Shown here piece after piece: positions 34,355 through 43,085 of a stretch of 64,000 nt of DNA. The stretch spans positions 4,100,001 through 4,164,000 of the forward strand of contig BPGD01000001.1 in assembly GCA_026002855.1 (NCBI GenBank). Reading direction: 5' to 3'. Origin of the DNA: Bryobacteraceae bacterium. GTDB lineage: Bacteria > Acidobacteriota > Terriglobia > Bryobacterales > Bryobacteraceae. The position numbers and the translations under genes are program-made. A model generated the notes under the pieces. That model did not search any database. It worked only from the letters and a program-made list of their open reading frames with translations, and was not told the origin of the DNA. How positions within the stretch are numbered: the stretch's first letter is position 1; every line of letters begins with the position of its first letter.

Positions 34355-35245
34355 CTACGATGACGGACTCTCCGGAGCGCGGGCCTGCGCCCGGGCGCCG
34401 AGCGTTTCATTCAGCGAGCCCTGGCGGTAGCCGCGCAGATCGAGCGCGGAATAAGGAAAGCCGAGCGAGCGGAAGATCTCCGCGAGCCGGTCGAACATTT
34501 CCAGGGAAAGCGCGCGCTCCATTTCGGCGCGGTCAATTTCGAGGCGCGCCACGTCGTTGTGATAGCGGACGCGGAACTGCCGGAAGCCGAGCGAGCGGAT
34601 GCGCTCCTCGGCCAGTTCGATCCGTTTCAGCACTTCCGGCGTCACCGGCGTGCCGTAAGGCACGCGGGAACTGAGGCAGGCGGCGGCAGGACGGTCCCAG
34701 GTGGGCAACCCAGCCATGCGGGACAGTTCGCGGATTTCGGCTTTCGACAGGCCGGCCTCGACCAGGGGCGCCTTGACGCCGTGCAGCAGGGCGGCGTTCT
34801 GGCCGGGACGATAATCGCCCAGGTCATCCGTGTTGACCCCGTAGACGATCACCGCGCCGCCGTAGCGGGGCGCGATCTGCTCCATGCGGCGGAACAGTTC
34901 GTCCTTGCAGTGGTAGCAGCGGTCCGGGTTGTTGGCGACGTAGGCGGGGTTGTCGAACTCGTGCGACGGGATCAGTTCGTGGCGGATGCCGTAGCGGCGG
35001 GCGAAGTCGATGGCATCGCGCTTGTGGGACTCGGGAATCGAAGGGGAATCGGCGGTGACGGCGATGGCGTTGTCTCCGAGCACCTCGCGGGCCGCCCAGG
35101 CCAGGTAGGCCGAATCGGTGCCGCCGGAATAGGCGACGAGGACACGGCCGAGATGGCGAAGGATGCGGAACAGTTTCTCCTGCTTTTCGCGCAGGACGGC
35201 TGCATCCGGCGCGGCGGTCCTGCCCAGCGGCACCAAACCCGTCAT
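34355..35245 (-). CDS. larE: ATP-dependent sacrificial sulfur transferase LarE
   Basis: LarE donates its own cysteine sulfur to the pyridinium dicarboxylate precursor of the nickel-pincer nucleotide cofactor used by lactate racemase and related enzymes. The 296-residue protein has the PP-loop SGGTDS (residues 40-45) and CYHCKDELF (Cys110, Cys113). The sacrificial residue position is Cys190 in AAACLSSRVPYGTP; the single Cys there fits the sacrificial rather than the [4Fe-4S] class. larB and larC are not in the window. The ATG at 35245 is preferred over an open frame extending to 35320. It is divergent from the TonB receptor operon. Confidence 0.88.
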   Translation of the reverse strand: MTGLVPLGRTAAPDAAVLREKQEKLFRILRHLGRVLVAYSGGTDSAYLAWAAREVLGDNAIAVTADSPSIPESHKRDAIDFARRYGIRHELIPSHEFDNPAYVANNPDRCYHCKDELFRRMEQIAPRYGGAVIVYGVNTDDLGDYRPGQNAALLHGVKAPLVEAGLSKAEIRELSRMAGLPTWDRPAAACLSSRVPYGTPVTPEVLKRIELAEERIRSLGFRQFRVRYHNDVARLEIDRAEMERALSLEMFDRLAEIFRSLGFPYSALDLRGYRQGSLNETLGARAQARAPESPSS

Positions 35246-35338: not shown

Positions 35339-35367
35339 TTGACCATTTCAGTCCCGGATGCTACACT
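35339..35367 (+). promoter_or_regulatory. Putative promoter of the TonB receptor operon
   Basis: TTGACC (35339-35344) lies 17 bases from TACACT (35362-35367), giving a good sigma-70-type pair with a start site near 35374. The leader to the receptor ATG would be about 160 bases. Confidence 0.5.
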
Positions 35368-35376
35368 GAGGCTGAT

Positions 35377-35399
35377 CTGATGCAAACGAATTGCATCAG
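35377..35399 (+). promoter_or_regulatory. Perfect 9-bp inverted repeat, Nur-box-like operator
   Basis: CTGATGCAA-N5-TTGCATCAG is a perfect palindrome just downstream of the predicted start site. Its core TGCAA-N5-TTGCA equals the nickel-responsive Nur box I recall from Streptomyces (TTGCAA-N5-TTGCAA). It could also act as an RNA hairpin at the 5' end of the transcript. A degenerate copy (GATGCAA-N5-TTGC) at about 36006-36025 falls inside conserved plug-domain codons and is probably chance. Confidence 0.55.
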
Positions 35400-35534
35400 G
35401 AAAGGAATTGGACAGGACGCTGCGGACCGGCGCCCGCTGGCACGGAGAGGCCGGTCCGCAGCCCACCACCGCGTGGCGCGGCGGCTCTCCCATTGTATGC
35501 CGCCGCGCGTGCAGCGAACAGGAGGTCTGGAAGA

Positions 35535-38048
35535 ATGGGAGCGAGAGGAATTTGCATCTGGCGACTGGCGCAGGCGGCAGCGCTGGGCATGATGGCCGGA
35601 GCCGTTCTGGCCGCACCGGGCAACGGCCTGGAAGGGGGCGGCCCGGGGGCCGCAGGGCACTGCCCCATTGAGATTCTCGTGCAGGACACGAGCGGGGCCC
35701 GCATCCAGGACGCGTGGGTGCGGGTGGCAGGGCCGGTGGACGGCCAGGGCAAGAGCGACGCCGAGGGCCGTTTCTGTCTGGACGGCGCGCGGCGGGGCCG
35801 CTATGTGGCGGCGGTGGAAAAGACGGGCTTTGAGAAAGCATCGGCGGAGTTTGTGCTGGAGCAAGCGGCCGTCACCCGGACGGTTGAGCTCCGGCCCGCG
35901 GCCGTGCGGCAATCGATCGACGTGGTGGCCACGGCGGATCAGGCGGCCGAGGCGGTGGAACGGATCGCCGGCAGCCTGCTGGAAACACCCCGCTCGGTGA
36001 GCGTGATTGATGCAAGTGAATTGCGAGAAAGGAACTTTCGCAACGTGCACGACCTTCTGGCCTTCGTGCCGGGCATGGGGCCGAACAGCCTGCGCACGGG
36101 CGGCTACCACTTTTATGCGCGCGGCTTCCGCATGGGGGCTGAAGACGTGCGAGTGGACGGCGCCACCGGCGCGGCGATGGGCGGGGGCTACAGCGTGTCC
36201 ACGTTCGGCATCGAGCAGGTGGTGGCGCTGAAGGGGCCCGCAGGGCTGCTTTACGGGCCGGCCGGGTCGCCCGGAGGCTTCATCAACCTGATCACGAAGA
36301 AGCCGCAGCCGGTGCGGGCGACGCAACTCGATTTCCGCGGTGCAGCCATGCCGGGCCAGGGCCTCGGTGCGGGCGACCGGCTGTCCGGGATGTTCGACCT
36401 CGACAGCACGGGCTCGGTCACCGCTGACGGCCGTCTGCAATACCGGGCGCTGTTCACGGCGGAAAATCAGCGCTACTTCACGCGCGACGTGCTGGACCGC
36501 AACCGGTACGCACGCGGCTCGCTCCTGTACCGGCTGGACCGGAACGGGCTGTTCACGGTCCTGCCGGTGTTTCAGTATGGCTCGATGATCCGCCCGGCTG
36601 GCGGGGGCCTGGTGATCAGTCCCTCGACATCGCTGTCCACCAGTGACGGTTTCATTGGACCGATTCACACGGCCGACCTCACACCGCACAGCGTGAATCA
36701 TTCGGCGGGACAGCACCGGTATTACACCTCGCAGGCGGGCTTTGACTTCCGCGCCGTGCCAGCCGCGGCCTGGACGGCGAACCTGAACTACCGGTGGATG
36801 CGCAATGACCGCCACATCAACCAGTGGACGCCGGTGGTGAACAACGCGCAGCAGGCGGCGCTGCTCGTGAACCAGAACGAAGTTCTCCGGCAGCAATCGA
36901 AGAGCGACAACCGCAACCGGCATCATGTCATCGACTTCAACACGTCCTACGAGTGGCGAGGCCGCGGCTGGAGGAACCTGAGCCAGGCGGGGGCATTCAC
37001 GCGCGTCGTCGGTGTGGCCTCGACGTCGCCGACCGGCGCGGCTCCGGCGGCGGCCTGGCCGATTCAGATCTATACGGGAGCGCTGCGGCTTGGCGCGCCC
37101 GCCGATCTGTATCCGCGCATCGTCTTCGGTCCCTTCACGAACACGACGACGTGGAACACGTTCTGGCAGAACCGGACGTGGCTGTTCGACGAGCGGCTCG
37201 TGGTGACCGTGGGGCTCGGCTACGGGCAGGTGCATCCGGGCGGGCAACCGGTGCGCAAGGGCGAGCTGATTCCGAACTATTCGGCGCTGTACCGGCTGCG
37301 GAGCAACCTGGCCGTGTACTACAGCTACTCGCGGAGCTTTAACCCCGTGGATCCGACGCTTGAGGATTTCCAGGGCCGAAGGAACGTTTTTGATCCGGTG
37401 CGCGGGTTCAACCACGAGGCGGGCCTGAAGTTCGACCTGCCGTCGCGCCGCGCGGGGGCCACGGTGAGCTACTTCGACACGGGCATTGACAACGCGCTGG
37501 TGCAAAGCGGCATCAACGACTTCAACGTGAACGGCGTGCGTTACTATCAGGCCGCCGGGAGGCGCCGCGGCCGTGGCGTCGAGTCCAGCGTGGAGACGCG
37601 CCTGCTGCATGATGTGTATGTACAGGCGGCGGCCACGTGGATCGAGGCGTGGTACACCGGCTCGGGGCCGGCCAGCGCGGCGGCGACGATGGCGATTCCG
37701 GGCTCGCGGGCGGAGAAGACGCCGCGCTGGAGCTGGAACAGCCGCCTGCTGTATGAGCGCACGGAGGGGCGGCTGGCCGGCTGGAGCGCCTCGCTGGCGC
37801 TGGTGAACCAGGGAGCGCGCTTTGGCAGCAATGGCGCGCGCACGTTCAGCGCGCCGGACCCGCTGCTGCTGCCGGCCTACACGCGGCTGGATGCCTCGAT
37901 AGCATACCGGCTCAACCGCCACTGGGACGGGGCGCTGTATGTCGAGAACCTGACCGACCGGCGGATCTGGATCAACGCCACGACCGGCGCGGCCATGGAA
38001 CAGGCGCCGCCGCGAACGGCGACGGTGCGGCTGAGTTACCGGTTCTGA
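35535..38048 (+). CDS. TonB-dependent outer-membrane receptor (siderophore/metal type)
   Basis: An 837-residue receptor. A signal peptide (about residues 1-30, LAQAAALGMMAGAVLAA) is followed by a carboxypeptidase-regulatory-like beta-sandwich (about 48-120). The plug domain (about 125-265) has ETPRSVSVIDASELRERN and GPAGLLYGPAGSPGGFIN, and a 22-strand barrel ends in an aromatic residue (SYRF). The plug sequence is of the FhuA/FpvA siderophore class. GGAGG nine bases before the ATG at 35535 fixes the start; the frame extends upstream to 35391 without one. It is the first gene of a five-gene run with ApbE, so it probably imports a metal or metal-chelate that the downstream redox proteins then process. 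Confidence 0.92.
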   Translation: MGARGICIWRLAQAAALGMMAGAVLAAPGNGLEGGGPGAAGHCPIEILVQDTSGARIQDAWVRVAGPVDGQGKSDAEGRFCLDGARRGRYVAAVEKTGFEKASAEFVLEQAAVTRTVELRPAAVRQSIDVVATADQAAEAVERIAGSLLETPRSVSVIDASELRERNFRNVHDLLAFVPGMGPNSLRTGGYHFYARGFRMGAEDVRVDGATGAAMGGGYSVSTFGIEQVVALKGPAGLLYGPAGSPGGFINLITKKPQPVRATQLDFRGAAMPGQGLGAGDRLSGMFDLDSTGSVTADGRLQYRALFTAENQRYFTRDVLDRNRYARGSLLYRLDRNGLFTVLPVFQYGSMIRPAGGGLVISPSTSLSTSDGFIGPIHTADLTPHSVNHSAGQHRYYTSQAGFDFRAVPAAAWTANLNYRWMRNDRHINQWTPVVNNAQQAALLVNQNEVLRQQSKSDNRNRHHVIDFNTSYEWRGRGWRNLSQAGAFTRVVGVASTSPTGAAPAAAWPIQIYTGALRLGAPADLYPRIVFGPFTNTTTWNTFWQNRTWLFDERLVVTVGLGYGQVHPGGQPVRKGELIPNYSALYRLRSNLAVYYSYSRSFNPVDPTLEDFQGRRNVFDPVRGFNHEAGLKFDLPSRRAGATVSYFDTGIDNALVQSGINDFNVNGVRYYQAAGRRRGRGVESSVETRLLHDVYVQAAATWIEAWYTGSGPASAAATMAIPGSRAEKTPRWSWNSRLLYERTEGRLAGWSASLALVNQGARFGSNGARTFSAPDPLLLPAYTRLDASIAYRLNRHWDGALYVENLTDRRIWINATTGAAMEQAPPRTATVRLSYRF

Positions 38049-38054
38049 CCGCTC

Positions 38055-38720
38055 ATGAGGGTCCAAGTGGACGCGAGCGGAGGCACACCGACAATCGGGC
38101 GCCACAGCCATGCCCACCCCCCGCGCTGGCGGGCATGGCTGTGGAACCAATTGCGCACGTGGCACTGGGTGAGCTCCGCGGTTTCCCTTGCCGGAATGCT
38201 GCTTTTCGCTTTCACCGGCATCACGCTGAACCATGCCGGAGCTCTCAAGGCGAAGCCACGGCTGAAGATGGCGGATGGAACAGCCCCGCGCGGCGTTGTC
38301 GACGCGCTTGCCTCCCCGGATCCGAAGAAGCAGGCTGAGGCGGCCGCCTGGTTTCGCTCGGCGCTTCATTTTGATTTCGACCGTGCCCAGAGAGAGCGGC
38401 AGGGTTCGGAGATCCTGGCGAGCCTGCCGCGCCCGGGCGGCGACCGCTGGGTGACGGTGGATCTGGTTTCCGGCACCTTTCACATGGAAGACACTGACCG
38501 GGGCTGGATCGCGCTGCTAAACGATCTGCACAAGGGCAGGAACACGGGCCGTGCGTGGTCCCTCTTTCTGGACGTGTTCGCGGGCGCCTGCGTCCTGTTC
38601 TGTCTCTCCGGCCTGGGCCTGCTGGCGATGCATGCGCGGCGGCGGCCGATGACCTGGCCGGCAGTGTTTGCGGGAATTCTGATTCCGGGGCTGCTGGCGT
38701 TGTGGCTGGTTCACCGTTGA
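38055..38720 (+). CDS. PepSY-associated membrane protein
   Basis: A 221-residue inner-membrane protein of the PepSY-associated TM family. A first membrane helix (about residues 36-60) contains WHWVSSAVSLAG and ends FTGITLNHAG. A periplasmic region of about 95 residues follows, then LLNDLHKGRNTGRAWSLFLDVFAG opens helix 2, and a third helix ends the protein. The paired His in WHW, LNH and DLH are the conserved positions thought to bind haem in this family. It starts six bases after the receptor stop. In such clusters it is expected to pass electrons across the membrane to periplasmic partners. Confidence 0.86.
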   Translation: MRVQVDASGGTPTIGRHSHAHPPRWRAWLWNQLRTWHWVSSAVSLAGMLLFAFTGITLNHAGALKAKPRLKMADGTAPRGVVDALASPDPKKQAEAAAWFRSALHFDFDRAQRERQGSEILASLPRPGGDRWVTVDLVSGTFHMEDTDRGWIALLNDLHKGRNTGRAWSLFLDVFAGACVLFCLSGLGLLAMHARRRPMTWPAVFAGILIPGLLALWLVHR

Positions 38721-38763
38721 GGACGCTTTTTCACAAGAAACAATCCGAGGAGGAAATGTCCCG

Positions 38764-39276
38764 ATGAATACGCGTTGGGCCGCGCTGGCCGCGGCCGGAA
38801 TGATGCAGACGCTCCCGCCGGCACAATGGCAGGCGGCGATCGACATTCCACGAATGGAAGTGGCTGAATATCACCGTCCTTATTTCGCATTATGGCTTGA
38901 AAAACCGGATGGCACATTTGTCGCAAATCTGGCCGTCTGGTACGACATGCGCGCGAAAAAAGGACAGGGCGAAGAGGGGACGGCGTGGCTGAAAGACCTG
39001 AGGGCCTGGTGGCGGAAGATCGGGCGCGAGCTGACGATGCCCGTGGATGGCGTCAGCGGGCCGACGCGGCCGCCGGGCCGCCACAGCGTGACGTTGAGCG
39101 CCGTTTCCCTGCCGCCGGGCGAATACGTGCTGGTGGCTGAGGCCGCGCGAGAACTGGGCGGGCGCGAGGTGGTGCGCGGACCGCTCCACTGGGACGGGCG
39201 AACGGTGCATGGCGGCAGCCTGCAAGGAAAATCCGAAATCGGATCCATCACGATCAAGGCAGAAAACGCGAGGTAG
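38764..39276 (+). CDS. DUF2271 protein with a flavinylation-like motif
   Basis: A 170-residue exported protein with a weak N-terminal leader (residues 4-25). The DUF2271 hallmark is EVAEYHRPYFALWLE and AVWYD, then WLKDLRAWWRKIGR, then the motif D95-GVSGPT-101 and RPPGRHSV. ApbE-family enzymes attach FMN to the last Ser/Thr of D-x-x-S/T-G-A-S/T motifs; here the Ala is Pro, so Thr101 is the candidate acceptor in an atypical motif. GAGGAGG ten bases upstream supports the ATG. Its place between PepSY and ApbE suggests a periplasmic flavin electron carrier. Confidence 0.82.
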   Translation: MNTRWAALAAAGMMQTLPPAQWQAAIDIPRMEVAEYHRPYFALWLEKPDGTFVANLAVWYDMRAKKGQGEEGTAWLKDLRAWWRKIGRELTMPVDGVSGPTRPPGRHSVTLSAVSLPPGEYVLVAEAARELGGREVVRGPLHWDGRTVHGGSLQGKSEIGSITIKAENAR

Positions 39277-39283
39277 TTGCATC

Positions 39284-40108
39284 ATGAGCATTTGGAATTC
39301 CTGTTTTCCATCTTGGGCACGCGCGGCCCTGTTTCTGGCCATTTTCTGCGGCGCCGCCCCGTCTGTCTCGGCGCACCGTCTCTGGCTGCTTCCGTCCTCC
39401 ACCGTGCTGAGCGGCAACGAGGGCTGGGTCACCGTAGATGCAGCGGTCTCCAACACCCTGTTCGTTTTCGAGCACCGCCCGCTGCGGCTGGACGGACTCA
39501 GCGTCATCGGCCCGGCAGGCAGGCGGCTCGAGGCGCAGAATCCACATACCGGTCAGTTCCGTTCCAGCTTCGACCTTCACCTGGATGCGCCAGGGACTTA
39601 CCGCATCAGCTTAAGCCAGTCCGTGGTGCTGGCGGCCTGGAAGGAGAATGGCGAGGCCAAGCGCTGGCGCGGACCGGCAACCGCAATGGCGGCACATGTT
39701 CCACCGCAGGCCGAGGAATTGCAGACGACGCGCAATGACATGCGGGTGGAAACGTTTGTGACGCTGGGCAAACCCAGCCGCGACGTGTTGGCCCCCGCGG
39801 GCGCCGGTCTGGAGGTTCTGCCCGAGACACACCCCAATGACCTCGCGGCCGGCGAGGAGGCCGTCTTCGTGGTGCTTCTGGATGGCCGGCCTGCGCCCGG
39901 AACGGAGCTGACTGTCGTCCAGGGTGGAGGACGCCATCTGGAACGGGCGTTCGAGACCAGAGCGGTCAGCGGCACGGACGGCCGCGTGCGGGTGCGCTTC
40001 CCAGCGGCAGGCTTTTATTGGTTGCAAGCCACCATTGGAGCTGCGGAACCGGGCCGGTCCGGGAGGCGCTCAACATGTGTCCTCACGCTGGAAGTGCTGC
40101 CGCAGTGA
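39284..40108 (+). CDS. DUF4198 periplasmic protein
   Basis: A 274-residue exported protein with a signal peptide (about residues 12-32, ALFLAIFCGAAPSVSAHRLW). The mature protein begins AHRLWLLPSSTVLSG, the usual DUF4198 start, with the His-containing head directly after cleavage. An Ig-like beta-sandwich spans the middle, and a second (TELTVVQGGGRH ... GFYWLQATIG) ends it. DUF4198 proteins are often annotated as nickel- or metal-uptake accessory proteins, and the N-terminal His after processing could bind a metal. The frame extends upstream to 39209, but the ATG at 39284 precedes the leader. Its end overlaps apbE by 34 bases. Confidence 0.84.
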   Translation: MSIWNSCFPSWARAALFLAIFCGAAPSVSAHRLWLLPSSTVLSGNEGWVTVDAAVSNTLFVFEHRPLRLDGLSVIGPAGRRLEAQNPHTGQFRSSFDLHLDAPGTYRISLSQSVVLAAWKENGEAKRWRGPATAMAAHVPPQAEELQTTRNDMRVETFVTLGKPSRDVLAPAGAGLEVLPETHPNDLAAGEEAVFVVLLDGRPAPGTELTVVQGGGRHLERAFETRAVSGTDGRVRVRFPAAGFYWLQATIGAAEPGRSGRRSTCVLTLEVLPQ

Positions 40109-41127
40109 GCCGGCGCCCGCGGCGCGTTCTGGTTCCGGTGGAGATCCCGGCGTGGCGCGCGCCGGGCAGGGCGCTGAGGCCATTGTTCTGGGAAGGCCGC
40201 GCCATGGGAACCTACTGGCGCGTGTCCGCCTTCGCCGGTTCCTCTGTGTCGGAGCGCCGCGTGACGGAGATCCGGCGCGGCATTGAAAGGCGGCTGGACA
40301 CGGTGGTCCGCCAGATGAGCCACTATGAGTGGGATAGCGATCTGTCCCGATACAATCGCGCCAGGGCGGGCACATGGGTTACGCTGCCGGACCCTTTCTT
40401 TGACGTCCTGCGATGTGCGATCGAGATCGCGGCGGCCAGCCAGGGATGGTTTGACCCGACCCTGGGGGAATGCATCTCCCTGTGGGGTTTCGGTGCCGAG
40501 CCGCCCGTGGAGGACCCGGCGGAGCCGGCGCTGCGGGAGGCGCTGAGGAATTGCGGTTGGGAGCGGCTGAAGCTGGACACGTTGAGGCGCGCCGCCTGGC
40601 AGCCGGGCGGGTTGAAGCTGAACCTGAGCGCGATCGCAAAGGGGTTCGCCGTGGACGACCTGAGCCGCTGGCTGCAACAGTGGGGGATCGTGTCCGCCCT
40701 GGTGGACATTGGCGGCGAACTGCGCGGATGGGGTGTCAAGCCGGATGGAACACCGTGGTGGGTCAGGGTGGAGAATCCGCCGTATGACGATGGCAGCATT
40801 GCGGAGACGCTGGCCGCCCTTTGCGGCCTGTCGATCGCGAGCTCAGGCGACTGGATGCAGTGGAGGCGCGCGGGCCAGCGGTTGGTCTGTCACTTGATGG
40901 ACCCGACCACGGGCGCACCGGTGGAAGGGGGCACGTGCGGGGCGGCGGTGATCCACGATAGCTGCATGGTGGCCGACGCCTGGGCCACGGCGCTGTGCGT
41001 TGCACCGCCGCGCGCGGCCATGCGGCTTGCCAGGCGGCACGGACTGGCGGCCCGCCTCATTTACCGGAAGCCGTGCGGCCAACTGGGCGAATGGCTGAGT
41101 CCGGCGATGCAGGCCATGGCGCGGTGA
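40075..41127 (+). CDS. apbE: FAD:protein FMN transferase
   Basis: ApbE moves FMN from FAD to Thr/Ser residues of exported redox proteins. The 350-residue protein shows AMGTYWRVSAF, WDSDLSRYNRARAGTWV, GWFDPTLGECISLWGFG, NLSAIAKGFAVDDLSRWL, ALVDIGGELRGWGVKPDG, IASSGDWMQ and MDPTTGAPVEGG ... VADAWATALCV, all in the ApbE order. GGAGG eight bases before the ATG at 40075 sets the start. It has no signal peptide or lipobox, unlike most ApbE proteins, so its export is unclear. It ends the TonB-PepSY-DUF2271-DUF4198-ApbE operon; the DUF2271 protein is the obvious target. Confidence 0.94.
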   Translation: MCPHAGSAAAVSRRPRRVLVPVEIPAWRAPGRALRPLFWEGRAMGTYWRVSAFAGSSVSERRVTEIRRGIERRLDTVVRQMSHYEWDSDLSRYNRARAGTWVTLPDPFFDVLRCAIEIAAASQGWFDPTLGECISLWGFGAEPPVEDPAEPALREALRNCGWERLKLDTLRRAAWQPGGLKLNLSAIAKGFAVDDLSRWLQQWGIVSALVDIGGELRGWGVKPDGTPWWVRVENPPYDDGSIAETLAALCGLSIASSGDWMQWRRAGQRLVCHLMDPTTGAPVEGGTCGAAVIHDSCMVADAWATALCVAPPRAAMRLARRHGLAARLIYRKPCGQLGEWLSPAMQAMAR

Positions 41128-41135
41128 GGCGCGCT

Positions 41136-41534
41136 TTACAGGCTCCAGAGGCGCCGGGGCTGGCACGCCGCGCAGGCGCAGCCGGGCCGCAGCCATTCCA
41201 GCAGGGCGCACCACCACCGGAGCAGCCGCGGCCGCGGCCGCTCTGGCAAAGGTTGCGCCGTTCGGCCGATGGCAGCGGCCAGCGAGGCCATCAGCGGCTC
41301 GCCGGTCAGAAACCGGGTGTGCTCGCCAGCCAGCCGGGCCAGCAGAGCCGCCGCTTCGGGATCGATGAAGGTCGCGCGGCGGAGGTCGATGAGCAGAGGG
41401 CGCCCGTTCCGCATGGACTCCGAGGTGGCCGCGGAGGCAAGAATTTCCTGTGCCAACGGCGGGTTCAGCGCTCCCACCACGGAAAACCGCAGTGCATCGG
41501 GCTGGTCGTGCAGGAAGAAAGCTGCGGAGCTCAC
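41136..41534 (-). CDS. Putative STAS-like domain protein
   Basis: A 132-residue product that begins SSAAFFLHDQPDALRFSVVG. NGRPLLIDLRRATFIDPEAAALLARL (about residues 43-68) has the strand-helix pattern of STAS/anti-sigma-antagonist folds, with Asp in place of the usual Ser/Thr phosphosite region. The tail is Trp/Arg-rich with a CACAAC cysteine cluster. The GTG start has AGAGG only two bases upstream, so a downstream Met (about residue 41) may be the true start. It converges with apbE and diverges from the flavoprotein gene. Confidence 0.5.
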   Translation of the reverse strand: MSSAAFFLHDQPDALRFSVVGALNPPLAQEILASAATSESMRNGRPLLIDLRRATFIDPEAAALLARLAGEHTRFLTGEPLMASLAAAIGRTAQPLPERPRPRLLRWWCALLEWLRPGCACAACQPRRLWSL

Positions 41535-41564
41535 ATCCTCTCAGACACCAAAGATGGCACGGCA

Positions 41565-41584
41565 GTGACAAAATCCTCTGTCAC
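41565..41584 (+). promoter_or_regulatory. Inverted repeat upstream of the SQR-like gene
   Basis: GTGACA-N8-TGTCAC is a perfect 6-bp inverted repeat 47 bases before the flavoprotein ATG and 30 bases from the divergent STAS-like start. The spacing does not fit CRP/FNR half-sites. A CTGACACA sequence follows at about 41606. Confidence 0.35.
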
Positions 41585-41630
41585 GAAATTCCTGCGCGGG
41601 CATCCTGACACAACAAGGAGGTGCGCAGGG

Positions 41631-43085
41631 ATGGCGCGAGTCGTGGTGCTGGGCGCGGGGATTGCGGGGCATACGGCGGCGGCGTTTTTGCGGCGCTGGC
41701 TGCCGAAGCGGGACGAGGTGGTCGTCGTCTCGCCGATGGCGGAATACAACTGGATCCCTTCGAACATCTGGGTGGGCGTCGGGTTGCTGAAAAAGAGGCA
41801 GGTGGTCTTTCCGCTGGCGCCGGTTTATCAGAGGGCAGGCATTGAATTCCGCCAGGCGCGCGCGGTGGCGCTCTGGCCGGAGGGTGACGCCGAGAGCGCC
41901 ACGCCGGCGGTGGAGATCGAGTGGACGCGCGAGGACCGCCGGGGGCAGCGGGAGAAGATCCGCTACGATTTTCTGGTCAACGCGACGGGGCCGAAACTGA
42001 ACTTTGATGCGACGCCCGGACTCGGTCCCGGAAGGCACAGTTACTCGGTCTGCACGGCCGACCACGCGGAGGAGACCGCGCGGGCGTTTCTTGAAGAAGT
42101 GGAGAGGATGAAGCGGGGCGAGCGCCGCCGCTTTGTTGTGGGCGTGGGCCATGGCTCCTGCACGTGCGAGGGCGCGGCGTTTGAGTACATTGTCAACCTG
42201 GAGTTTGAACTGAGGGCCCGCGGGGTGCGCGAGCGCGCCGAGATCCTCTATCTGACCAACGAATATGAGCTCGGCGACTTCGGCATCGACGGCCTGCACA
42301 TCAAGCGGGGCGGCTACATCACGCCGAGCAAGATATTTCACGAATCCCTGTTCGCCGAGCGGCAGATTGACTGGCTGACGCGCGCTCACGTGCGGCGGGT
42401 GGAGCCGGGCCGGGCCGACGTGCTGACGCTGGACAATGAGGAGCGCGAGGTCCGTTTCGACTTCGCCATGCTGCTGCCGCCCTTCCGCGGCGTGGACATG
42501 AAGGCGTTTTCGCGCGAGGGAGCCGACATCACCGACCGGGTGTTTGCGGCCAACGGATTCATGAAGGTGGACGCGGACTATACGCCGAAACCGTACGAGC
42601 AATGGAAGGCCCGCGACTGGCCGCGCTTTTATCAGAGCCCGGCCTATGAGAATCTGTTCGCGGCCGGCATTGCGTTTGCGCCGCCGCATCCGATCTCGCG
42701 GCTGCGCACCAACAAGGACGGGCTGATGATTTCGCCCGCGGCGCCGCGCACGGGCATGCCGTCGGCGATGATCGGCAAGGCGGTGGCGGCCAGCATCACC
42801 GACATGCTTCGCGGCGCCAGCAAGCCGACGCACACGGCCTCGATGGCCGAGATGGGCGCCGCCTGCGTGGCCAGCGCCGGCGCGAATCCCTTGACCGGGA
42901 CGGCGGCCTCGATCACGGTGTTTCCGATCGTTCCCGACTACGAGCGCTATCCGGAATACGGCCGCGACCCGAATTACACCTTTGGCGAGATCGGACTCGC
43001 CGGCCACTGGATCAAGATCCTGCTCCACCACATGTTTCTGTACAAGGCCCGGTTGCTGCCGGGCTGGTGGATGATCCCGGAGTGA
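41631..43085 (+). CDS. Sulfide:quinone oxidoreductase-like FAD flavoprotein
   Basis: A 484-residue pyridine-nucleotide-disulfide oxidoreductase-type flavoprotein. FAD binding is shown by VVVLGAGIAGHTAAAFL (residues 4-20) and LLPPFRGVD; the middle contains FVVGVGHGSCTCEGAAFEY with Cys177 and Cys179, and Cys412 sits in GAACVASAG. SQR enzymes use a redox Cys pair to oxidise sulfide and reduce quinone; here the Cys spacing is unusual, so the substrate could be another sulfur species. AAGGAGG nine bases before the ATG supports the start. A 62-residue gene follows after four bases. The C-terminus (HHMFLYKARLLPGWWMIPE) is amphipathic and probably membrane-associated. Confidence 0.85.
   Translation: MARVVVLGAGIAGHTAAAFLRRWLPKRDEVVVVSPMAEYNWIPSNIWVGVGLLKKRQVVFPLAPVYQRAGIEFRQARAVALWPEGDAESATPAVEIEWTREDRRGQREKIRYDFLVNATGPKLNFDATPGLGPGRHSYSVCTADHAEETARAFLEEVERMKRGERRRFVVGVGHGSCTCEGAAFEYIVNLEFELRARGVRERAEILYLTNEYELGDFGIDGLHIKRGGYITPSKIFHESLFAERQIDWLTRAHVRRVEPGRADVLTLDNEEREVRFDFAMLLPPFRGVDMKAFSREGADITDRVFAANGFMKVDADYTPKPYEQWKARDWPRFYQSPAYENLFAAGIAFAPPHPISRLRTNKDGLMISPAAPRTGMPSAMIGKAVAASITDMLRGASKPTHTASMAEMGAACVASAGANPLTGTAASITVFPIVPDYERYPEYGRDPNYTFGEIGLAGHWIKILLHHMFLYKARLLPGWWMIPE

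Follow-up and report, generated by a model that had tools for sequence, protein, structure and literature searches.

A Probable Reductive Iron-Uptake Operon Encoding TonB Receptor, PepSY, DUF2271, DUF4198, and ApbE Proteins in a Bryobacteraceae Bacterium

Architecture and distribution of the locus

The window, a stretch of 64,000 nucleotides from a Bryobacteraceae bacterium (GenBank assembly GCA_026002855.1, contig BPGD01000001.1, positions 4,100,001 to 4,164,000), contains five open reading frames (ORFs) on the plus strand that encode a TonB receptor, a PepSY_TM_like_2 membrane protein, a DUF2271 protein, a DUF4198 protein, and ApbE, in that order (Table 1). The five genes probably form a reductive iron-uptake operon, in which DUF2271 would bear a flavin and pass electrons to the iron of an imported chelate. 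This interpretation is built on what is read directly at the locus and in the genomes compared with it, namely, the gene order, the protein families, the retained residues, an operator shared with feoA, and the presence of FeoAB. The host genome comprises 4.44 Mb on a single contig, and its nearest named relatives are Bryobacteraceae metagenome-assembled genomes.

The receptor and PepSY genes are separated by 6 bases, the PepSY and DUF2271 genes by 43, and the DUF2271 and DUF4198 genes by 7, and the DUF4198 and ApbE genes overlap by 34 bases. An earlier, sequence-only reading of this DNA had described five same-strand genes with this order and spacing and had named these families; the ORF coordinates bear out the arrangement, and the Pfam matches, in which every product scores above the cut-off of its named family, bear out the assignments. 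Position 35339, at which that reading began the unit, is the first base of the TTGACC −35 element.

Table 1. Features of the five-gene locus and its flanks
Feature	Coordinates	Strand	Basis or remark
Sigma-70-type promoter, TTGACC - 17 - TACACT	35339..35367	+	Sequence; mostly retained in SKYG38, SKYG119, G145, and the G142 remnant
Operator, perfect dyad TGATGCAA-ACGAA-TTGCATCA	35378..35398	.	Perfect inverted repeat; candidate iron box
Two G+C-rich hairpins in the receptor 5′ leader	35419..35515	+	Predicted folds; one loop partly conserved
TonB-dependent receptor, siderophore-receptor type	35535..38048 (ATG)	+	Plug 7e-16, TonB barrel 1e-26
PepSY_TM_like_2 membrane protein	38055..38720	+	PF16357 9e-61
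DUF2271 protein, flavinylation-like motif DGVSGPTR	38764..39276	+	PF10029 1e-39
DUF4198 protein, periplasmic metal-binding candidate	39284..40108	+	PF10670 9e-47
ApbE, FAD:protein FMN transferase	40075..41127	+	PF02424 1e-70; without obvious signal peptide
LarE	34355-35245		Divergent neighbour of the operon
STAS-like gene and sulfide:quinone-reductase-like gene	41136-43085		Flank the operon on the side opposite LarE

The PepSY–DUF2271–DUF4198–ApbE order recurs in Bryobacterales and in Proteobacteria, which argues that the order is more than chance. Scattering of the genes in related genomes would speak against a functional unit, as the sequence-only reading had pointed out, and no scattering of the four-gene core was seen. 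The TonB receptor is the loosest partner. Among the loci examined, the full five-gene order, with no more than 100 bases between receptor and PepSY domain, is present in the window, SKYG38, and SKYG119, and most clusters have no related receptor directly upstream; the profile used to find receptors was derived from the window receptor alone, and other receptor types may be missed.

DUF2271 is present in 65 of 257 genomes of the order, and 60 of the 71 listed DUF2271 places were taken into the comparison. Most Bryobacterales loci (L067–L117) belong to a fused type, in which ApbE and DUF2271 are encoded in one ORF with PepSY adjoining and no DUF4198 hit; the window cluster is of the separate type. 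A tree of PepSY, DUF2271, and ApbE (66 loci, 613 columns, midpoint root) places the fused type in one clade (45/45, 0.99). The window groups with SKYG38 and SKYG119 in a clade (1.0) that stands next to all other separate-type clusters in the tree. Separate-type clusters from Acidobacteriota do not form a single clade, and the grouping of F-183 and G079 with Nitrobacter (0.86) hints at exchange between phyla. Two Oxalicibacterium loci, L043 and L045, have their substrate genes duplicated: two DUF2271–DUF4198 pairs surround one PepSY gene, and ApbE is single.

Within the genus, the whole operon is present in the window genome and in G143 (SKYG119). G145 has kept the receptor, the operator, and the leader; the other four genes are absent at the locus, and no DUF2271 was found anywhere in that genome. 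In G142, the promoter, the box, part of the leader, and approximately 99 bases of a broken DUF2271 gene lie between LarE and STAS, remnants that indicate loss there and not original absence. G144 has LarE, and neither DUF2271 nor a receptor orthologue was found in its genome. The deletions in these sister genomes, with the receptor alone in G145 and remnants in G142, provide a natural comparison without engineering. Membership of the STAS-like and sulfide:quinone-reductase-like genes in the operon was considered and rejected, as both still adjoin LarE in G142, from which the operon is gone.

Operator and candidate iron box

The core of the operator is a 17-bp box, WTGCAA-N5-TTGCAW, at positions 35380-35396, just downstream of the −10 element. 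At up to three mismatches, the dyad occurs twice in the window, against a chance mean of 0.08. SKYG38 and SKYG119 have the same promoter, followed by an inverted repeat approximately ten bases past the −10 element, and the arms of the repeat have changed in pairs: GATGCAA/TTGCATC in the window and G145, and ATTGCAA/TTGCAAT in the G142 remnant. The box is present at the operon in G000, G143, G145, and the G142 remnant, and it differs by one core change in SKYG38.

The pattern WTGCAANNNANTTKCAW, searched at up to one mismatch in the set of five genus genomes, gives 60 strand-hits, against 5 for the control. These correspond to 44 places, 13 of which are exact. The exact matches comprise feoA in all five genomes, the operon or its remnant in four, and four others, every one of which is upstream of a TonB-receptor gene. 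The match in G142 lies 419 bases ahead of the receptor gene and that in G143 462 bases ahead; in G144, one match is at the start of a receptor gene and one is 23 bases ahead of a PepSY–receptor fusion. The nine matches at feoA and the operon are not independent, having supplied the pattern, whereas the other four are. At feoA, the box and the start codon overlap, and all 17 bases of the box are invariant in the five genomes, with TTTCAA as one arm. It uses uncommon codons, CAA (12.5% of the Gln codons in feoAB) and AGT (5% of the Ser codons); invariant stretches that exceed the box in length, at 22 and 23 bases, also occur in feoA and feoB. Among the 31 one-mismatch places, 29 were looked at, the other two being inside the receptor gene itself. 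Fourteen of the 29 are intergenic by a crude gene caller, and of these two, in two genomes, precede ferritin-like genes and one precedes an outer-membrane barrel gene (Pfam). At the other intergenic sites, judged from the first residues of the flanking genes alone, no iron gene was seen.

Scans of the host genome add the following. TGATGCAA-N5-TTGCATCA at up to three mismatches is found in seven places, exact only at the operon, and outlines no regulon. Three matches to TTGCAA-N5-TTGCAA were inspected by eye, and no iron gene adjoins them; a further match, reached through a search for FeoB, sits at feoA. FeoA and FeoB are both encoded in the host genome, away from the operon.

Outside the genus, the core TGCAA-N5-TTGCA is located 82 to 111 bases upstream of the PepSY domain in F-183, G079, and G164, where the first or last base of the box is one off the W. 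Over 75 loci (877 kb), the core box occurs 10 times, compared with 0.2 in single-base shuffles. Five of the 10 are at the operon promoter, and the other five are in L041, L044, L067 (twice), and L102. The two box cores of L067 (G207), at 2550 and 2715, are 165 bases apart and lie outside the fused cluster. With up to one mismatch, the box is found in the 700 bases upstream of the first gene at 5 of 24 loci with DUF4198, three of them (L041, L042, and L057) with an altered core, and at none of the 51 loci that lack a DUF4198 hit, which are almost all fused-type.

The canonical Fur box is GATAATGATAATCATTATC, and upstream of the receptor gene its best match is only 10/19. The host genome has three FUR-family genes. 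Of 14 proteobacterial loci taken for a Fur-box test, two were too short upstream; in 6 of the 12 tested, the canonical Fur box upstream of PepSY beats all 60 shuffles, and in 9 of the 12 its score is matched by no more than 5% of shuffles. A single literature search returned no mention of the box in any of five spellings.

The 17-bp dyad reads as an iron-responsive box, one to which Fur would bind. Because the box is common to the operon, feoA, and other TonB-receptor genes, the metal handled by the operon is taken to be iron. The sequence-only reading had spoken of metal uptake in general, with iron and nickel both in view; the operator favors the former and not the latter. In a different reading, the four-gene set would be a general envelope redox module, serving oxidised-protein repair or respiration, with the receptor gene merely co-transcribed. 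The many loci at which the four-gene set has no adjacent related receptor, and the survival of the receptor alone in G145, would fit such a module. Iron boxes of their own in F-183, G079, and G164, Fur-like boxes in approximately half of the proteobacterial loci tested, and a phenotype in ethylenediaminetetraacetic acid (EDTA) already seen at the Caulobacter locus (PMC12004947) would not, and the redox-module reading is very unlikely.

Component proteins and a proposed route for electrons and iron

The PepSY protein has three helices (by eye). His37, His60, His159, and His193 are kept in 23, 21, 24, and 23 of 24 separate-type proteins, respectively, and their positions suggest ligands for two hemes, with His60/His159 on the periplasmic side and His37/His193 on the other, a pairing proposed from the expected antiparallel course of helices 1 and 2. 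By these residues, the protein has the four His for two hemes that are characteristic of a FoxB-like di-heme protein. PepSY-TM proteins beside iron-regulated TonB receptors in Alteromonas have been read as siderophore permeases (PMC7190382), and by analogy the window protein could be a permease for the intact chelate, with reduction in the cytosol. This role is distinctly unlikely for a protein that has only three helices, two of which are flanked by four conserved His, an arrangement comparable to the two bis-His heme sites in a PepSY-like structure covered by PMC11334425; moreover, a permease would have no need of ApbE and an ApbE substrate, which constantly accompany the PepSY protein. In fused-type loci the fourth PepSY His is absent (0 of 44), and the fused type perhaps uses a different electron route. 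The notion that fused ApbE–DUF2271 proteins lack a flavin acceptor was rejected as an artefact of a strict pattern, since all 48 distinct fused DUF2271 sequences keep xAT at the same location, and in 35 the residue two before the Ala is Ser or Thr.

The flavinylation-like motif of DUF2271 is DGVSGPTR in the window and DGxSGATR in most relatives, and the Ala-to-Pro change is common to SKYG38 and SKYG119 (SGPT and TGPT). With the outlier L118 left out, all 27 separate-type DUF2271 proteins retain the acceptor Thr. ApbE aligns over nearly its whole length with the solved flavin mononucleotide (FMN) transferase 4xgw (2e-46) and keeps H..DP.TG and ADAW.T. Signal peptides were gauged by a crude hydropathy score, which for the window N-termini is 1.03 for ApbE, 1.32 for DUF2271, and 2.40 for DUF4198; the ranges, 0.26 to 1.83 for ApbE (22 separate-type loci), 1.32 to 2.83 for DUF2271 (28), and 1.60 to 3.18 for DUF4198 (26), overlap. 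A second ApbE of the host genome, at 1420-2433 of L009 (G000:C1:1002168-1005965), has a signal-peptide-like N-terminus and adjoins hemE- and hemG-like genes (by eye). It could serve the periplasm where the ApbE of the operon seems not to.

The processed DUF4198 protein begins with His after a VSA cleavage site (by eye), and this residue is His in all 26 aligned sequences, including that of the window; the His34 and His153 columns hold His in 88% of sequences each. An AlphaFold model of the processed protein (22 sequences) has a predicted local distance difference test score of 90.7. In a fold search, the model matches metal-bound Zcp (Z 20.8, 211 residues, root-mean-square deviation 3.6) and Ni-bound 9GCB (Z 16.6, 201 residues, root-mean-square deviation 4.9), both well clear of the next-ranked entries (Z 9.6). 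When the PDB was searched by sequence with DUF4198, Zcp chains matched weakly (0.0055 and 2e-06; the printed molecule name is that of an unrelated enzyme) and 9GCB was not found. Residue 18 of the window protein, by position number and without residue-level superposition on 9GCB, is Trp, and thus a second ligand, if any, would be another residue.

These matches bear on a reading of the locus as an uptake system for a nickel (or cobalt or zinc) chelate, in which DUF4198 would bind Ni(II) and the flavin part would only keep the periplasm reduced. A DUF4198 protein has been described that binds Ni(II) with a Kd of 18 nM through its N-terminal His and His18 (PMC12537917), the window model is similar to structures with bound Ni or Zn/Cu/Co, two of the Caulobacter homologues are affected by a zur mutation (PMC4176598), and LarE is the divergent neighbour. 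LarE contributes to the nickel-pincer cofactor. The idea that its presence here signals nickel use was rejected: the LarE, STAS, and sulfide:quinone-reductase genes remain adjacent in G142, where the operon is lost, and LarE also stays in G145, where the operon is truncated, making it a neighbour and not a partner. With position 18 of the window DUF4198 being Trp, and the operator common to feoA, other TonB receptors, and ferritin-like genes, the nickel reading is unlikely.

The N-terminus of the receptor has a signal peptide (by eye) followed by a CarboxypepD_reg-like domain. The receptor scores 166 bits against TIGR01783, below the cut-off of 223.5, and its orthologues in G143 and G145 are 79-80% identical. 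In the 5′ leader, the fold z score is −3.8 for the window, −2.4 for SKYG38, and a weak −1.0 for SKYG119, and all matches of the leader to Rfam are far below family thresholds. Pairing of a leader hairpin loop with the start codon was rejected, as shuffled loops did equally well in 5.6 to 74% of trials in four genomes. Elsewhere, at 1271-4789 of L209 (G144:C1:366500-374500), a single frame of 1172 amino acids, with an iron box 23 bases ahead of it, encodes a PepSY_TM reductase and a complete TonB receptor. A signal-peptide-like stretch lies between the halves, with no ATG directly ahead of it and an in-frame GTG as a possible internal start; otherwise, the fusion would be a precursor to be cut.

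In the favored reading of reductive iron uptake, the five genes would be transcribed as one unit, repressed by Fur and induced when iron is short. The TonB receptor, as its family suggests, would import a ferric chelate into the periplasm. The three-helix PepSY protein would carry electrons across the inner membrane via two bis-His b hemes, in what is presumably the outward direction, to an FMN that ApbE would attach covalently to the Thr of DUF2271. The reduced flavin would then convert chelate-bound Fe(III) to Fe(II), freeing it from the chelator, and the processed DUF4198, starting with His, may hold the freed divalent metal as an Fe(II) carrier. Uptake of Fe(II) would fall to FeoAB, whose feoA gene carries the same box as the operon. 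The sequence-only reading had likewise proposed a flavinylated DUF2271 that reduces or releases an imported metal chelate; this proposal agrees with the role put forward for such clusters in PMC8238504 and gains support from the operator shared with feoA and with other receptor genes.

Several observations weigh against this reading. As to the box, 9 of the 13 exact matches come from the two loci that supplied the pattern, and two of the four independent ones are the distant matches 419 and 462 bases from a receptor gene, the latter with another gene 131 bases away on its opposite side. Of the 29 one-mismatch sites, 15 lie inside genes as called by a crude gene caller, and the ferritin-like pair are the only clear iron genes. 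No intact box was found upstream of the separate-type clusters L041, L042, L059, L061, and L063, and TTGCAA-N5-TTGCAA at up to two mismatches is not enriched in the host genome (28 matches, against 42 in the control). As to the proteins, the window DUF2271 has SGPT in place of SGA[ST], and so departs from the usual [S/T]GA[S/T]. The N-terminus of ApbE is not a signal peptide by the crude score, and the score of the window DUF2271 leader is the lowest of 28, both of which bear on where flavinylation would take place. No cytosolic electron donor is found within the operon, and DUF4198 structures have shown Ni, Zn, Cu, and Co as bound metals but no Fe. Finally, mutation of zur also lowers CC3060 and CC3061 of the Caulobacter locus (PMC4176598).

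Of the steps in the scheme, the putative part of DUF4198 as a carrier holds the most interest. A more specific version of the scheme, in which DUF4198 takes Fe(II) straight from the flavin protein to FeoAB and the box WTGCAA-N5-TTGCAW replaces the canonical Fur box in Bryobacterales, is tentative and more doubtful than the scheme as a whole. If true, the Fe(II) relay would join the literature on DUF4198 as a nickel protein with that on flavinylation clusters as iron reductases.

Comparison with known systems

The type of system is already published; new here is the regulatory evidence for the metal. PepSY-like flavinylation clusters that have PepSY, DUF2271, DUF4198, and ApbE together, some with a TonB receptor, have been described and proposed to function in iron reduction and assimilation; their PepSY proteins are described as three-helix, and ApbE-dependent flavinylation of one DUF2271 was shown and was lost on a Thr-to-Ala change (PMC8238504). 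The co-occurrence of DUF2271 and ApbE, which the sequence-only reading had mentioned, is evident both in those clusters and in the loci compared here. By the cluster definition of that work, the window has a PF03929/PF16357 PepSY protein, ApbE, and DUF2271 as the substrate domain; [S/T]GA[S/T] is given there as the usual DUF2271 motif and is not used to define the system (PMC8238504). Further features of such clusters are covalent FMN on the substrate and a signal peptide or lipidation site on one or more of ApbE, FMN-bind, DUF2271, and DUF3570; for the latter, the window proteins were gauged by the crude hydropathy score given above. Similar to those clusters, the window has the PepSY (PF16357), DUF2271, DUF4198, and ApbE set; it differs from them in having SGPT rather than SGA[ST], a different iron box, and an ApbE without an obvious signal peptide. 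DUF2271/DUF4198 pairs have also been linked to iron-responsive receptors (PMC7190382), and a DUF4198 gene appears in passing in a paper on cefiderocol in Acinetobacter (PMC10826366). A literature search for Acidobacteriota together with ApbE and flavinylation found no paper. The locus extends the idea of a flavin-based iron reductase to an order of Acidobacteriota and backs iron with regulatory evidence of an independent kind; it also supplies a candidate for the iron box of Bryobacterales and opens the role of DUF4198 in these clusters to direct tests.

The Caulobacter locus CCNA_03155-03159 (CC_3059-3063) is Fur-regulated and combines, as the window does, DUF2271, DUF4198, ApbE, and a protein of the PepSY family. 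CC_3059-3063 are among the iron-responsive, Fur-regulated genes (PMC3751524), and insertions in the locus lower fitness in EDTA (PMC12004947). That locus adds a reductase flavoprotein, which is missing from the window, and has no receptor listed in the unit, whereas the window includes one. In Caulobacter hiuABC and Pseudomonas FoxB, a PepSY protein of the di-heme type is associated with periplasmic release of siderophore iron, with a receptor alongside in hiuABC. HiuB and FoxB are larger PepSY proteins. Consisting of genes for a receptor, a PepSY protein, and a small membrane protein, hiuABC lacks DUF2271, DUF4198, and ApbE, unlike the window; hiuAB, the receptor and PepSY protein, are needed for hydroxamate siderophores, and hiuC for some (PMC13001220).

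For DUF4198, the closest structural relatives are IsDUF4198 (9GCB) and Zcp (9MHI to 9MHO), on the latter of which no publication stood among the ten that a literature search listed. The main text of the paper on the Ni(II)-binding DUF4198 protein (PMC12537917) has no occurrence of ApbE or PepSY. Both relatives have the same fold as the window protein, and the alignment with 9GCB starts at residue 1, the processed His, of both. In 9GCB, His1 and His18 hold Ni, whereas the window protein has Trp18, and its other well-conserved His residues are 34 and 153.

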